Translations under genes and position numbers: made by a program | In this document: in pieces, positions 9,836 to 19,014 of the stretch | Numbering within the stretch: the first letter of the stretch is position 1 | How the letters are laid out: each line of letters begins with the position of its first letter | IMG/VR virus record: IMGVR_UViG_3300046804_004454 | Coordinates: 1 to 21,127 of that record | Reading direction: 5' to 3' (one strand) | DNA from: a virus | DNA length: 21,127 nucleotides | The notes under the pieces: generated by a model | Told to the model about the DNA's origin: nothing | Database searches by the model: none | The model's input: only the letters and a program-made list of their open reading frames with translations

Positions 9836-10372
9836 TTAGTATTTTTGAGGTTTGCGGCCGCCTGGCTGATTTGGCCAGCTGTTGGAGCTTGGTAGCTTGG
9901 TGTTATTAGAGGGCAGGCTGCTGTCGCTAGGATATGTACCTAGATCTGCAGGTTTCTCTGCGTGTAGTTTTTCTACTCTGTTACTCTTTTTGATTCCACC
10001 GGTTGGCGGTAAATTAATACCATAATCGACAAGCTCTAGTACTTCACTTGGAAGGGTCATTATATTGTAAGCTAATCCTGGGGCATGTTCTTCAAATACG
10101 TCAATATAATACCCGTCTGGAGCTGAACGGTGAGGTATACCAGAAACGTCTGGTCTAATTGATTTAATGCTTGAAACACGAAGGTCTTTATTATTATCAA
10201 TTAGAGATTTTACCATATCTTTAAATGTCTGTCCTCGAGATGCAAGATATGGGTGGGAAAGTGCTGTGCTCTTAATTCTAACGATATCCCCTAAAAGATA
10301 ACCGCCTAGTTGATATCTCCCGAGAGAGTATTCTAAGAGCGTTTCAAACTTACTATTTTCAAGCTTCTTCAT
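9836..10372 (-). CDS. Conserved-looking phage protein, function unknown
   Basis: The protein has 178 residues. The N-terminal part (FETLLEYSLGRYQLGGYLLG, then DIVRIK) looks like a helix leading into a small beta-rich 'G-D-V-R-L-K' module. The middle has S-I-K-S-I-R-P and a Gly-Tyr-Tyr-Ile-Asp strand. The last 45 residues are a Pro/Ser/Asn-rich, probably disordered tail. I recall similar uncharacterised proteins in marine myoviruses but know no function. The ATG is preceded by GATAAATA with a 9-base gap, divergent from the gp25 gene promoter, so it is probably expressed late, when virion genes are. Confidence 0.82.
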   Translation of the reverse strand: MKKLENSKFETLLEYSLGRYQLGGYLLGDIVRIKSTALSHPYLASRGQTFKDMVKSLIDNNKDLRVSSIKSIRPDVSGIPHRSAPDGYYIDVFEEHAPGLAYNIMTLPSEVLELVDYGINLPPTGGIKKSNRVEKLHAEKPADLGTYPSDSSLPSNNTKLPSSNSWPNQPGGRKPQKY

Positions 10373-10425: not shown

Positions 10426-10887
10426 ATGTCTATAAAACTAAAACAGCTCAAGCCTGCTCAAGCAAAAGAGTACATATACTCTGATCTACATCTTGATATA
10501 GAGGAAGTAGCCATACAAAGGAATGGTATAGGTAATGTGTATGGTACTGATATAAGAGCAGATTATAATATGCTTGCTATTAAAAATAATATACGAAGCA
10601 TATTTAACACAAGGCGAGGGCAAAGATTACTTTACCCGACGTTTGGTGTTTTCTTAGAAGAGTATTTGTTTGAACCAATTTCTGAAAATACGGCAATCAG
10701 AATAGCAGAAGCTATATATAACGGTATAACTAATTTTGAGGATAGAGTAACTGTAAAGAATGTAAACGTTTATCCTATTTATGAAGATAACGCATATACT
10801 GTTACAGTTACCTTGTACGTACCTATACTCGATATAAATACTCAGACTGATGCAACACTTAATAAAGACGGATTCTTCATACTATAG
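10426..10887 (+). CDS. Baseplate wedge protein, gp25/gpW-like
   Basis: This 153-residue component of the contractile-tail baseplate wedge is part of the sheath initiator (T4 gp25, P2 gpW). The family signature is clear: a helix (IKNNIRSIFNT), then RRGQRLLYPTFGVFLEEYLFEP (given here as the GQR-x-x-x-P-x-FG-x-x-L-x-x-x-LFEP pattern), followed by the helix-and-strand segment EDRVTVKNVNV and beta strands to the C-terminus. T4 gp25 has 132 residues. It is the first gene of the virion block, directly followed by the gp6/J-like gene, the standard W-J order of contractile tails. No Shine-Dalgarno sequence precedes the ATG. Confidence 0.93.
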   Translation: MSIKLKQLKPAQAKEYIYSDLHLDIEEVAIQRNGIGNVYGTDIRADYNMLAIKNNIRSIFNTRRGQRLLYPTFGVFLEEYLFEPISENTAIRIAEAIYNGITNFEDRVTVKNVNVYPIYEDNAYTVTVTLYVPILDINTQTDATLNKDGFFIL

Positions 10888-12656: not shown

Positions 12657-15600
12657 ATGTACTATATATACGATACAACGACTTTTAAGCCCATAGCAAG
12701 CCCGCAGAAAGGATATACTACTGCTACACCTATCTTATTTGATATACCTGTAGAGGTAGATATATTCCCTACTCTTAACATTGCGGGTGTAGACTATTAC
12801 TTTGGAGACGGTACTCGGGAGTATACTGCAGCTCCTCGATTATCTACAGAGCATACTTATGTAACGCCAGGTAACTATAGCGTGTCTGCTGTAGTTTATA
12901 CTGTGTCAGATATATCAACCACACCAGCTGTTCTTGCAGTTGATACCGTTGTAATTAAGAATTTTGTAGATGAAGCTGTTACGTTTGGTTATATTCCTTC
13001 TCCTACAATACCTGGATTCTATACAGAGTATCCTTACAAGGTATACTGTACTACGACCAGACTAGACACACCGCCAGTTATAGATCTATATGCTCAGTTC
13101 ACTAGATCTCTTCCGCCTCAAGAGCCTAGAAATAAATGGTCTTTTGTGAGACCAGAGTGGAAGTTTACTGATGTAGATAAAAATCTTATTAATAGTGTAA
13201 CGCCAGTATATAACGAAATTAAAATAGATCCAGATGGAAATATAAGCGATACAGGGGTTGTGGTGGGTTTATCTGGTGCGGCAGAATTTTATTTCGTAGA
13301 AGACTTGCCGAGTGCAGATCTTTATAAGAGTAATCAACCTACTCCATTTATATGGGCTACACTTAACACTGAGACAGTAGGTACAAGCAAAGACTCTGAC
13401 ATTAAGAATAATCAATTATATAGCTACAGCACCAGCAAGGCACGGGCTTTTGCTCCTCATATATCTTACTGGGTACCTCCTACACATCTCAGCATAAGTG
13501 AGAACGGTGCTAGAGAATTTTCAAACCCTAGATGGGTAGGGGCCCCGTTACCTTTCTTTGTATCAGTAGAGATCTCTTCTACTACCATACAAATAGAAAA
13601 ACATAAACCTGAGTCAAGTTTTGTAAAGTATGTACCTTATGATTTTGCACTTACAGCTACACCTGTTTTGGTGCAGGTTAATGCAGTAGATGCTACAACG
13701 CTAACTCCTTATATGCCTGTAGAGTTCAGCATATCAAATACTGATATAGGGGTTTATAGTATGAAGCAATACGACAGTGACGGTACCAGCTCGGCAGGTT
13801 TCTTAACTGGGTCAGCTGTACCATATGTAGAGCAAGACATACGTATATCTGCAGTAGCTACCTTTGATCTAGATAGTTTGTATGTTGCAGGCGAACAACC
13901 TAGTTACTCTCCGTATCTATGGTTGCCTAATCCTGCAGCTGCTTGCGTTAGTATGGTGTATTATACAGGTACATTGAATGCTTCAGTAGCAGCTGCTATA
14001 GGCTCTGGTATAGATACATACTCTACATATAACGTCAATATACCAACCATCAACAATATTAATCTAGATGCGACAGAAGGCTATACTGGTATATATACAG
14101 TAGCAGTGAGCCCTGGTCTTCAACCAGACTATACATATTATACATGGGTGGCAGACGCAGATTCAGATTACCTCTATAAAATAAATGCTAAGGGAGATAT
14201 AGTGCAATATCTGAGTCTGTCTACTCTGGCAGGCAAAAGCAAAGTTACCCCGGCCGGACTATGTATAGATTCAGAAAAGAATGTATGGGTAGCTCTATAT
14301 GATACAAGAAAGATATACAAGATCGATCCATACGGTACACCTCTGCTCAACACAGAGCCCCCTGTGAGTGTTTTCCCTGTCACCGACCCTGGAGCACCGG
14401 GTATATTTGATTCAACAGCTACTGGTGCAAGTAAATATGTAGATGTTCCCCTGATGGAGGCGACCTGTATTGATTCAGATGCAAATAATAATGTATGGGT
14501 GACATACTCTAATACATTAAGCAGCTTTTTAGTTAAGTTTGATACTAATGGTAATTATTTAACACACGTAAATACAGGAGGTACTACACCGCAAGATATT
14601 ATAGTTAAAAGAGACAATACCCTATGGGTAGCAGAGACGAGCGAGTTTCACAGTGGGGTAGGGAAGATAGTACATTATAGCTCTACAGGCGCAGTATTAG
14701 ATATAGTAGACAATATTGAGGGGTTGGGGTATATAGCTATGGATAAGGATGACGATATATGGTTTACCTACGACTTTAATAAAGTAGGTAAAATAGATGT
14801 ATCTGTATCTACTAGCGCATATACAAATGTAATAAATGTTAGCTCTTTCAATCCCTCTATCTCTGCATCTCCTATATCTTCCATAGATGCATCTATACAA
14901 TTTACAGCTTTAGAGGGTATAGGTTGTAATGATAATAATCTTATATTTGTAGTACATTCTATAGATAATAGGGTATATGTGTATGATGCTGCGGGTAGTT
15001 TAGTAGACAGTATATATATAGTACCTCATCTACAGAGAGGTATATATAACGACTCTAATAGACTTAAGGTAGACAGTGATGAGTGGATTAAATCTATACA
15101 AGTTTTAGGAGACTGGACTGGCTCTAGATGGGCTAAAAAATACTCTAATAGATATACAGGCACTATTACATTAAGTGGTCTATCTAAACCTCTTAATGTA
15201 AGAAATTTAAACCCTAACGAGTTTAGAAAAAGGAATCAAGACTTTAATATGTCTGAGTATTTAAAAAATTTAGTTAATATGGATTTCTTTAAAGATAATA
15301 ACTCTTATCTATTTGACACCGTATTACCTTCTATATACGGTGACTCTTCAAAAATAGATGATTCAGGTACTATATTTTATGAGAAGATAGCAAATTTTCT
15401 AGACAATACATCAGACATCGATACATGTGATATCGATATGCTACACAAACTGGCTACTATGCTTAGTGTAGAAATTAGTAACAGCAACACAGTAGACATG
15501 CCCTATCAGATGAAGCAAGTAATGAATTTGCTTAGTATATCTCAAAAGAAACTGTGGGGAATGAAGTGTAAGTGCAATATGAACTTTACTTCCAACTCTA

Positions 15601-16043
15601 CCTGTACTGGTGATAATATATGTAAGATTTGTGGCAAATGTAAATTAAACAATAAAGGAGATGTGATAGATATCTATAACTACACAGTCGCTGTAGGAGT
15701 GCCGTTTGTAGTCAAGGAGATAGGATTAGATTCATACTACTTACACTACCCTGTACCTATTAAAGTGACGGGGGTAGGAGGCTCTACTTCTACCTTAATG
15801 GTATATAATGCCTCTATGTTGAGTAGTGTAGGGTTTAGATCTCCTATAGAAGACAATTATAATTTCTATACATATATAAGTGCAACAAATGATAATCACA
15901 TACAAAATACTATAGACTGGGAGAACCCATACACTACAGTTAACTACAACTTGATTTCATCAGCAAATAGCTGGCAAGGGCAAGAAGAAGCTATAGATAC
16001 TATGCTAAATTATTATCTATACAAAGGACTAGAAATAATATAA
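12657..16043 (+). CDS. Giant PKD plus NHL beta-propeller protein with gp7/gpI-like C-terminal region
   Basis: The protein has 1128 residues. Residues about 30-100 form a PKD-type fold (YYFGDGT, later HTYVTPGNYSVSAVV). About 490-790 is an NHL/SMP-30-like propeller with repeated blades (NVWVALYDTRKIYKID, NNVWVTYSN, DIWFTYDFNKVGKID). About 850-970 is helical with NPNEFRKRNQDFN and a 'LDNTSDIDTCDIDMLHKLATML' stretch reminiscent of P2 gpI/tail-protein-I. A six-cysteine cluster follows (C971, 973, 983, 989, 992, 995), possibly a zinc or disulfide knot. Position after gp25 and gp6, and length near T4 gp7 (1032 aa), suggest a gp7-equivalent wedge protein carrying extra receptor- or glycan-binding modules. 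That is inference from synteny. Confidence 0.9.
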   Translation: MYYIYDTTTFKPIASPQKGYTTATPILFDIPVEVDIFPTLNIAGVDYYFGDGTREYTAAPRLSTEHTYVTPGNYSVSAVVYTVSDISTTPAVLAVDTVVIKNFVDEAVTFGYIPSPTIPGFYTEYPYKVYCTTTRLDTPPVIDLYAQFTRSLPPQEPRNKWSFVRPEWKFTDVDKNLINSVTPVYNEIKIDPDGNISDTGVVVGLSGAAEFYFVEDLPSADLYKSNQPTPFIWATLNTETVGTSKDSDIKNNQLYSYSTSKARAFAPHISYWVPPTHLSISENGAREFSNPRWVGAPLPFFVSVEISSTTIQIEKHKPESSFVKYVPYDFALTATPVLVQVNAVDATTLTPYMPVEFSISNTDIGVYSMKQYDSDGTSSAGFLTGSAVPYVEQDIRISAVATFDLDSLYVAGEQPSYSPYLWLPNPAAACVSMVYYTGTLNASVAAAIGSGIDTYSTYNVNIPTINNINLDATEGYTGIYTVAVSPGLQPDYTYYTWVADADSDYLYKINAKGDIVQYLSLSTLAGKSKVTPAGLCIDSEKNVWVALYDTRKIYKIDPYGTPLLNTEPPVSVFPVTDPGAPGIFDSTATGASKYVDVPLMEATCIDSDANNNVWVTYSNTLSSFLVKFDTNGNYLTHVNTGGTTPQDIIVKRDNTLWVAETSEFHSGVGKIVHYSSTGAVLDIVDNIEGLGYIAMDKDDDIWFTYDFNKVGKIDVSVSTSAYTNVINVSSFNPSISASPISSIDASIQFTALEGIGCNDNNLIFVVHSIDNRVYVYDAAGSLVDSIYIVPHLQRGIYNDSNRLKVDSDEWIKSIQVLGDWTGSRWAKKYSNRYTGTITLSGLSKPLNVRNLNPNEFRKRNQDFNMSEYLKNLVNMDFFKDNNSYLFDTVLPSIYGDSSKIDDSGTIFYEKIANFLDNTSDIDTCDIDMLHKLATMLSVEISNSNTVDMPYQMKQVMNLLSISQKKLWGMKCKCNMNFTSNSTCTGDNICKICGKCKLNNKGDVIDIYNYTVAVGVPFVVKEIGLDSYYLHYPVPIKVTGVGGSTSTLMVYNASMLSSVGFRSPIEDNYNFYTYISATNDNHIQNTIDWENPYTTVNYNLISSANSWQGQEEAIDTMLNYYLYKGLEII

Positions 16044-16044
16044 T

Positions 16045-19014
16045 ATGTCTAAAATAAGTATCAAAGCATATAGAAGTAAAAGTATACCGCCCGTATATTT
16101 TGTGAACACCGCTGTACTGGTAGGTGAAGTAGTATATGTTTATGTAGATCCACTGTATGCTGCGTCTCAAAAAAAGAAAATAGAAAACTATACTATAGAT
16201 TTAGGAGAGGGAGGGATCGGTACCTCTGCAAGTACTCGTGTAGAAATACTAACAAAGTCTTCAGGTTACTATAGCTGTAAACTTATTGTGAGTTACACAA
16301 CGGGAGAGATATCTGTACATGAACTTACACAAAAGATCAGAGTCTTACAGACACGGCCGGTGTACGAGTATGATAGATATAGAGTATTAAACAACTCATA
16401 TATAAAGCTACCATACTCTTTTGAAGATGTATCTGTAAAGCCAAACGAGTTTGGTGTTGCAGATGTTGTTAATGCATCTTTTAGAAAAATATATGAATGC
16501 ACTCAGTTTGTGAAAGCTCAAACTCGGGCGCTTTCCAATACCACCCCAACTGAATATATAGGGTGGCTTGGTTGTCACAGCAGTTACAAGCATAGGGGTA
16601 TTATATGGCATACCGCTAATACTACTCCAGACGTTAGTGCAGAAGCTTCTAAGTCTATAGTCTCTCCTACCTTACCTGAGTTTAATAACATTATAGATAT
16701 AGATGTAGTTGATGATGAATTATATGTATTATCAAGAGGAGATGACTATAGAAGTATCAACTTAATGGTAGATACATTTAATTTTAGCTTTGATCCTATT
16801 AAATTTGAGACTGTAAAGACATCTCTCGGTAACATTAAAGGAGCATCAAGCATAAGTGTATATAAAGCAGATAGCAAAAAAAGAGTTATATATATTGCTG
16901 ATGGCGTCGGTAACAAGGTGTACAGATTAGTCACAGTTTTAGATAGAGCTTCTCCTACTATAACAATCGAGGAATCTGCTGGCGGGTATGGTCTGAGAGG
17001 AGAGCCTACTAGATTCTTTTCTGTTAGTGAAGCATATTATACACAAGATAAGGTATATTGCGTAGACTACAACAATAATTGTATTAAAGTTTTAAATAAA
17101 AATTTAGGTTGGAAAAGTACCATATACCTTGAAGAGTTTGAATCAAATAAAATTGCCAGTGCAACTGTATGTTTAGTAAGTCAAGGTAGCGTAGAAGAGT
17201 CGCTTATTTTCGTACTTACTGAAACTAGAAGAATATATATACTTAATGAATCAGGAGAAATCTATAATGATAGAGTACCTTATTATGATCTATTAGATAT
17301 ACCTGACACACAAACACCAAAGCAAATTGTAAGAGACAACAACAACAGCTTCCTATATGTTATGTGTAATAACTATGTATATAAATATAGTGTACTAGGG
17401 CTGTTTATAGGGGCAATGGAGAACATACCATATACAGAAGAGCTGGTAGGTATGGCGGTAGATATACATAGTAATGTATATATTGCCAGTAAAGATAAGG
17501 TACATAAAGTCTTAGATATAGTAGAGAGTCACGATATATCTCACAGAGAATATGATAATATGTATTATTCTCTTCAGGATGTATTTGTTCAAGAAGAAGA
17601 ACTTTATCAGGATTGGGTAGTTAATAGATCTTTACATAGATTAGCAACCAATGTTGATCTATTACACCGTAGTATACATTCTCGGTTTGGTGTGAGTAAA
17701 GTGAACACAAAGTATGGTATGCAAACTAGATTTGCTACTATACCGGTATCCCGTATAGATGTAGCAAATTGCGATCTTGTATCAAAAATAGGAGTAGGAG
17801 TAAATGAGATGTCTCTGTCTCAAATATATAATAGAGATCTAACATACATATACTCATGCTTAGAGTCTATCATAGAAAAGGTTCAGACCTATTTAACGAG
17901 TTCAACAGATAATGGAGGAGAGTGTAAGGATGTATTTTGCTGGTCGTGGAAGAGTACTAAATGTCAGGATATAGTTTCTCCTTTCATGAGAATATGTGAT
18001 GTTAATCCTATAACATTTAAGGAGTTGACAGCTACTGATAGTAGTCAATACACAGCTGGAGAAAAGGAATGGTATAAAGCGTACAGCAGCTGCTGTACGG
18101 GTAACCGTCCCTCAGAACCTACCATCTTGACTAATTTGTTTAGCGGTGATAAAGCTAAAAATAATATAGTTAACGGTAGCTTAATAAATAGTACATACAG
18201 AACCCCTACAGGCTTAAGTGTCGGGGTAGATGGCTCTATATATGTATGTGACTTTGCTGGTAACATCATTAGACGAATAGACAACGCTACCGTATCTATA
18301 TACACAGGCAAAGCTACTGTTTCAGGGTTTGCTAACGGCAGTAGAGGGGATGCCTTATACGATGGCCCTAAGTCTTCATGGGTAAACAACAATAGTGATG
18401 TATATATAGCAGACTACAACAATCATAAAATAAGATTAGTTAGCAACACAGGTAACGTAACTACATTTGCTGATGTATATACCCCGTCGGCTGTAGTGGC
18501 TACAGATACAAATGTATATGTATGCAGTTATAGTGAGAGCTTATTATATAAATTTGATATATCAGGTACTTTAGTTAGCACATATGCAGCTTTAAGACCT
18601 CAGGGCGCAACTATAGATATATTTGGAGATGTATTAGTCACTAGCGCAGATAACCTAATATATAAACTAAACTCATCTACTGATACAATTAGTGTATACG
18701 CAGGAGATGGGGTAGCGGGAGATAAAAACGGTAATCGTACTATCGCAAGATTTAATAATCCTCAAGGTATAACTGTAGATCTGCTTAATACAGTGTATAT
18801 AGCAGACACTGATAATCACACTATAAGGAGTATATCGAGTACTGGGATGGTTGCTCGAGTAGCGGGTAGCGGTAGACCAGGTTATAGAGAAGGATATGAA
18901 GATGTGTCCTCGTTTAATCATCCTACATCTGTACTTTATAGCCCTCTGCACCAAAGCTTGTTTATAGCAGATACAGGCAATAATATTATTAGAATTGCTA
19001 CAATACTTAAATAA
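16045..19014 (+). CDS. Second giant NHL beta-propeller baseplate-associated protein
   Basis: The protein has 989 residues. An N-terminal beta-sandwich-like region (1-105) is followed by a first propeller (about 205-495; VIYIADGVGNKVYRL, DKVYCVDYNNNCIKVL). A helical connector follows (about 500-620; VFVQEEELYQDWVVNRSLHR). A Cys-rich segment holds C627, 632, 640, 651, 683 and 684. A second propeller (about 715-989) has textbook NHL blades (SIYVCDFAGNIIRRID, DVYIADYNNHKIRLVS, TVYIADTDNHTIRSIS, SLFIADTGNNIIRIAT). NHL propellers bind proteins, glycans or RNA in other systems. Here, one base after the previous NHL gene in the baseplate operon, a structural or adsorption role is the likeliest reading (inference). 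No enzymatic residues are recognised. Confidence 0.9.
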   Translation: MSKISIKAYRSKSIPPVYFVNTAVLVGEVVYVYVDPLYAASQKKKIENYTIDLGEGGIGTSASTRVEILTKSSGYYSCKLIVSYTTGEISVHELTQKIRVLQTRPVYEYDRYRVLNNSYIKLPYSFEDVSVKPNEFGVADVVNASFRKIYECTQFVKAQTRALSNTTPTEYIGWLGCHSSYKHRGIIWHTANTTPDVSAEASKSIVSPTLPEFNNIIDIDVVDDELYVLSRGDDYRSINLMVDTFNFSFDPIKFETVKTSLGNIKGASSISVYKADSKKRVIYIADGVGNKVYRLVTVLDRASPTITIEESAGGYGLRGEPTRFFSVSEAYYTQDKVYCVDYNNNCIKVLNKNLGWKSTIYLEEFESNKIASATVCLVSQGSVEESLIFVLTETRRIYILNESGEIYNDRVPYYDLLDIPDTQTPKQIVRDNNNSFLYVMCNNYVYKYSVLGLFIGAMENIPYTEELVGMAVDIHSNVYIASKDKVHKVLDIVESHDISHREYDNMYYSLQDVFVQEEELYQDWVVNRSLHRLATNVDLLHRSIHSRFGVSKVNTKYGMQTRFATIPVSRIDVANCDLVSKIGVGVNEMSLSQIYNRDLTYIYSCLESIIEKVQTYLTSSTDNGGECKDVFCWSWKSTKCQDIVSPFMRICDVNPITFKELTATDSSQYTAGEKEWYKAYSSCCTGNRPSEPTILTNLFSGDKAKNNIVNGSLINSTYRTPTGLSVGVDGSIYVCDFAGNIIRRIDNATVSIYTGKATVSGFANGSRGDALYDGPKSSWVNNNSDVYIADYNNHKIRLVSNTGNVTTFADVYTPSAVVATDTNVYVCSYSESLLYKFDISGTLVSTYAALRPQGATIDIFGDVLVTSADNLIYKLNSSTDTISVYAGDGVAGDKNGNRTIARFNNPQGITVDLLNTVYIADTDNHTIRSISSTGMVARVAGSGRPGYREGYEDVSSFNHPTSVLYSPLHQSLFIADTGNNIIRIATILK

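Follow-up and report, generated by a model that had tools for sequence, protein, structure and literature searches.

The gene directly downstream of the baseplate wedge gene gp6 in a T4-like myophage encoded a 1128-aa protein (P0001; positions 12657..16043, plus strand) made up of a PKD-like domain, a second beta-rich block, a predicted beta-propeller and a C-terminal domain. We consider P0001 to be probably a wedge component in the position of gp7 of T4 and gpI of P2, with the C-terminal domain as its anchor, the PKD-like domain, beta block and propeller as an arm for docking, and the propeller in a structural role.

The window, the whole stretch of DNA analysed here, was a 21,127-base IMG/VR virus record. 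The frame and coordinates of P0001 checked out, with an ATG start codon at 12657 and the stop at 16043. The gene was preceded on the same strand by homologues of gp25 (sheath initiator/baseplate wedge; 10426..10887; PF04965, 5.4e-13; phrog_261, 2.1e-23) and of the baseplate wedge protein gp6 (P0002; 10890..12653; phrog_219, 3.5e-35), and 3 bp separated the end of gp6 from the start of P0001. In T4, Aeromonas avDM6 and S-SSM7 this place after gp6 is occupied by gp7, and in P2 gpI follows gpJ. Both the position after gp25 and gp6 and the gp7-like size named in the original prediction, which was made from the letters of the window, were thus borne out (T4 gp7 has 1032 aa). A tblastn search with the window gp6 matched 532 phage records, cyanophages being in the majority. 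Based on the matches of gp6 to cyanophages and other T4-like phages and on a ribonucleotide reductase gene, the window was placed among T4-like myophages. Directly upstream of gp25, a minus-strand gene (9836-10372, approximately 180 aa) matched no family; its position was kept in nearly all relatives, and its counterpart measured 275-500 aa in the propeller-less clade described below. An ORF at 63-1343 had a hydrophobic stretch and an extended Thr-Pro-rich linker (TPTPTP), to which its match to phrog_15511 (4.5e-9) was restricted.

As a single-sequence query, P0001 matched neither viral contigs nor any of 50,697 phage records, and gp6 was therefore used as bait. Of the loci selected with gp6, 66 had a readable next gene of at least 120 aa, and in every case BLAST linked its product to P0001 in a single connected set. 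The C-terminal domain, used as a second bait, matched 516 environmental virus stretches, while a scan of the genome collection for this domain gave no match. In both bait sets together, a family member was located downstream of gp6 at 134 loci; at 132 of these the gene began -11 to +13 bp from gp6, so that the adjacency held across the family. These loci were divided into 113 with a propeller, 12 without, 6 truncated and 3 with the N-terminal block (N) alone readable. The 107 distinct proteins with a C-terminal domain (C) included 90 with the arrangement N-propeller-C and 11 with N-C; in the latter, the N block ended at most 14 residues from the C block, a clean modular boundary. Since all propeller-less members grouped together with support in the gp6 tree, as a single clade, the propeller state changed rarely, and judging by this tree the propeller is passed on vertically. 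The basal fork of the tree was without support, and the propeller-less state may be a loss or an ancestral absence. Two loci (L041, 2995-5426; L033, 3939-8094) carried the N and C blocks in two adjacent genes, possibly due to an assembly frameshift. The best Foldseek match of P0001 in a viral library (BFVD) was A0A6J7XER1, a 'PKD domain containing protein' of an uncultured Caudovirales phage (E 2.3e-66, 21% identity over most of the length), which carries no functional annotation and by its modelled structure is very probably a family member already deposited. Judging from the sequences collected, the P0001 family belongs to a large group of T4-like phages that are as yet uncultured.

The PKD-like Ig domain comprised residues ~20-100 (12714..12956, plus strand; PF18911, 4.6e-5; PF00801, 1.1e-3). 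The PF18911 match spanned residues 38-88 and scored below the family cut-off in P0001 itself and exceeded it in relatives including L022, L066 and L075. A PKD domain was detected in 29 of 36 homologues (best 8.6e-19), and profile and motif agreed in P0001, which had the FGDG motif of PKD domains at residue 49. The second beta-rich block (residues 101-445; 12957..13991, plus strand) was recognized from strands in the AF2 model, which extended up to residue ~460 (pLDDT of the whole model 71.6), and from the N block of the family profile; it was kept also in the clade without a propeller.

The C-terminal domain (residues 832-1128; 15150..16040, plus strand), the putative gpI/gp7-type wedge anchor, was helical in its first half and beta-rich thereafter. 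A gpI-like helical region had been proposed for residues ~850-970, and helices were indeed predicted within 865-967. A separate AF2 model of the domain reached a pLDDT of 81, and a Foldseek search of the PDB with this one model gave a best E of 0.46 and no gp7 or gpI among the best 50 matches listed. Membership in the gp7/gpI group is consequently not proven, and the structural match anticipated in the original prediction was not obtained. Weak profile similarity to gpI was located in the same region. The gpI register was centred on SDIDTCDIDMLHKLA at residue 919, and hhalign paired the family profile with P2 gpI as N..DxDTC..L..LA....P..IKR...G. The score of this alignment was 21.0, as opposed to a maximum of 17.2 among 150 column-shuffled controls. 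The accepted homologues gpI and gp7 scored slightly higher against each other (24.4, P 0.012). Matches to Tail_P2_I were recurrent but sub-threshold (best E 0.011 in one record; 0.054-0.076 against Pfam). Over 16 long contigs of relatives, the sole Tail_P2_I match was in the P0001 homologue of L027 (a 1670-aa frame), and an independent gpI profile matched this homologue at 1443-1489 and the window P0001 at 910-944.

Profiles of T4 gp7 and cyanophage gp7 had no significant match to the C-terminal domain in a comparison in which T4 against cyanophage gp7, the positive control, gave 96%. Full-length hhalign of P0001 with T4 gp7 was also uninformative. A separate gp7 gene elsewhere in the genome would have spoken against P0001 as the wedge protein. 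The gp7 families phrog_26741 and phrog_17744 were detected in all four controls (T4, S-SSM7, ACP17 and avDM6), and the helical part of gp7 had no match in the 16 related contigs (62-248 kb, possibly incomplete). One weak gp7-family match (E 0.0016) in the L026 contig lay outside the helical part of the profile. No separate gp7 or gpI gene was thus detected in the 16 long relatives, the window itself being a 21-kb fragment. Taking together the synteny, the lack of a separate gp7 match in the long relatives and the similarity to P2 gpI, which was weak but recurred in a consistent place, we read the C-terminal domain as probably of the gpI/gp7 type.

After the LWG motif, six Cys (971, 973, 983, 989, 992 and 995) occurred in P0001. 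They had been described as a six-Cys knot. The number and place of the residues were correct, but their pattern is CxC...CxxC with two extra Cys (15567..15641, plus strand), and in an alignment of 93 rows the loop was nearly all-or-none, with 4-6 Cys in 23 rows (query included), about a quarter of the homologues, and 0 Cys in 62. The segment is therefore likely better read as a facultative zinc-knuckle-like loop.

Downstream of P0001, the window encoded P0003 (989 aa; 16045..19014, plus strand), with an Ig-like domain, a propeller at ~200-490, a helical part at 490-690 and an NHL propeller at ~700-987 (PF01436, 3.9e-10; PF25021, 9.6e-13). Profile similarity between P0003 and P0001 was found for the Ig block (P 1.1e-4) and the propeller (P 2.5e-4). 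The C-terminal NHL propeller (700-987) was mostly absent from P0003 homologues. In most relatives, the first 686 residues of P0003 corresponded to the C-terminal part of a giant protein, d2 (1530-2180 aa), whose N-terminus matched a 331-aa fibre-adaptor-like protein of the propeller-less clade. In the window (16043-16045) and in its nearest relative L193 (8873-8893), P0003 directly followed P0001 and the N-terminal part of d2 was missing; a loss of d2 from the window by misassembly was set aside as L193 was arranged identically. PHROGs gave no gp8 assignment for the 331-aa protein, and gp8 (phrog_438) had weak partial matches in 2 of the 16 long relatives. In the propeller-less sister clade, collagen-like tail-fibre genes came next.

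A somewhat unlikely reading is that P0001 has no relation to gpI/gp7 and is a protein of the baseplate periphery or of fibre attachment, in a clade that has no gp7 or has an unrecognized one elsewhere, for example in d2. The lack of a gp7/gpI fold match in the PDB and the weakness of the profile similarity are in line with it, as is the conserved N-terminal domain of d2, which matched no recognized kind. This d2 domain was, however, without similarity to gp7, and no gp7 was found in the 16 contigs with working controls. The gpI-register score also exceeded all 150 shuffles, and adjacency to gp6 was strict, which speaks against this reading.

The propeller was predicted at residues 479-787 (14091..15017, plus strand; profile block 454-826). 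In the AF2 model, it consisted of 24 strands in six four-stranded blades (479-520, 532-566, 602-639, 644-688, 693-724 and 752-787). Pfam matches over 525-722 were to PF08450 SGL (4.3e-9) and PF24684 Vgb_lyase (4.4e-8, below the curated cut-off), and PF01436 reached an E of 0.22 only. The family profile matched designed 'Pizza' propellers in the PDB at 2.9e-23. Foldseek matches of the P0001 model in the PDB were NHL propellers (TRIM, Lin41) and virginiamycin B lyase propellers (E 1e-14 to 1e-9). On the basis of this model, residues 479-787 are a predicted six-bladed NHL/Vgb-type propeller; Pfam, AF2 and Foldseek agreed with the earlier placing of a PKD-like domain and an NHL propeller in the N-terminal two thirds. 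The propeller block was closed by a near-invariant GDWTGxxW motif (residues 818-825; 15108..15131, plus strand), with conservation over 79 rows of 0.99 for G818, 1.0 for D819, 1.0 for G822 and 0.97 for W825. Conserved positions within the propeller were blade residues (P532, D538, N542, W544, D608, N612, W614, D696 and W702), and the invariants among the 79 propellers were mostly G/P/D/W/N blade positions. No conserved His/Glu set, catalytic set or cluster of non-structural invariants was seen among these 79 propellers. Median identity to the window protein was 24% for the PKD domain, 25% for the second beta block (N2), 27% for the propeller and 30% for the C-terminal domain. As its identity matched that of the neighbouring blocks, the propeller is not a hypervariable tip.

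Ligand binding is common among propellers, and cell-surface proteins frequently contain PKD and NHL modules. The propeller might accordingly be a receptor- or glycan-binding module with which the baseplate senses the cell and helps to trigger contraction, as the original prediction had suggested, and the two further propellers in the adjoining P0003 fit such a function. We consider it unlikely. The propeller was no more variable than the structural blocks (27% against a median of 24-30%), was inherited vertically, was cleanly absent from one clade and had no cluster of non-structural invariants, and collagen-like fibre genes were encoded downstream in the sister clade. It is decidedly doubtful that P0001 is a core gp7-type protein with a ligand-binding propeller, through which the wedge would sense the host directly and pass the signal on for the sheath to contract, no separate fibre being needed. 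That the propeller is an enzyme (a lactonase or Vgb-type lyase) acting on the host surface or exopolysaccharide is highly improbable; SGL and Vgb_lyase were the top Pfam families, but the latter match was below its curated cut-off and the 79 propellers conserved blade positions rather than a catalytic set.

Vertical inheritance, conservation like that of the neighbouring blocks and the lack of catalytic-looking invariants favour structural docking over a hypervariable receptor-binding tip. In the arrangement that we propose for P0001 as a wedge component, the C-terminal domain (832-1128) would assemble with the gp6 pair at the core of the wedge, and the PKD domain, second beta block and propeller would form a rigid arm pointing outward. 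This arm may be the docking site for the fibres and for the proteins encoded next in the operon (P0003, or d2 in most relatives). The propeller would then be a stable structural and docking module between arm and anchor, neither an enzyme nor a fast-evolving receptor-binding tip. The core role of the C-terminal domain and the outward docking role of the arm are what we infer by analogy with known wedges. With 516 stretches carrying the wedge-position protein and the usual gp7 annotations failing on it, such baseplates are hard to annotate at present. A module at a fixed junction and a natural propeller-less clade offer the same core with and without the propeller, which makes the purpose of wedge arms testable.

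The P2 protein gpI (PF09684, Tail_P2_I) resembles P0001 in the place of its gene after the gp6 homologue and shares the register N..DTC..L..LA....KR...G with the C-terminal domain; unlike P0001, it has 176 aa and neither PKD domain nor propeller, and the similarity is sub-threshold. In the simple phage XM1, the gp7 orthologue has only 242 aa and consists of a core-bundle helix-turn-helix and of flexible segments that attach to the tail spike (PMC10457771). The gp7 'baseplate wedge initiators' of cyanophages also follow gp6 and are large (S-SSM7, 3007 aa; SynMITS9220M01, ~4070 aa), but their gpI-like part is N-terminal. No PKD domain or NHL propeller was found in S-SSM7 gp7. This protein (L084, 13867-22890) had a YHYH domain at 1249-1341, and one P0001-family protein likewise contained a YHYH domain. 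Large gp7-position wedge proteins with extra domains are thus already known from T4 and cyanophages, and the original view of a type not known as described holds for the composition alone: in a literature search covering few subscription papers, we found no description of the combination of PKD and NHL modules, its wide spread in uncultured phages or the presence and absence of a propeller at a fixed junction. T4 gp7 (PDB 5IV5, 5HX2) is like P0001 in following gp6. It had no PKD or NHL match, and its domains V and VI (PF21427, PF21456) were not found in P0001. The original statement that the T4 wedge contains no NHL propellers was upheld at the family level. T4 gp7 nevertheless has an Fn3-like N-terminus, a gpI-like helical part near its C-terminus (Gp7_helical, 643-689) and an invariant Asp-box (SNDKGQTW), whose sequence may point to a different type of propeller; the same literature search revealed no paper naming a T4 gp7 propeller. 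Given this N-terminus and Asp-box, a large arm preceding the gpI-like part already has a precedent in T4. Within the T4 wedge, gp7 is a monomer of several domains, the outer ones of which touch gp10, gp8 and gp9, and domain A of gp7 moves outward when the baseplate opens (PMC3004832).
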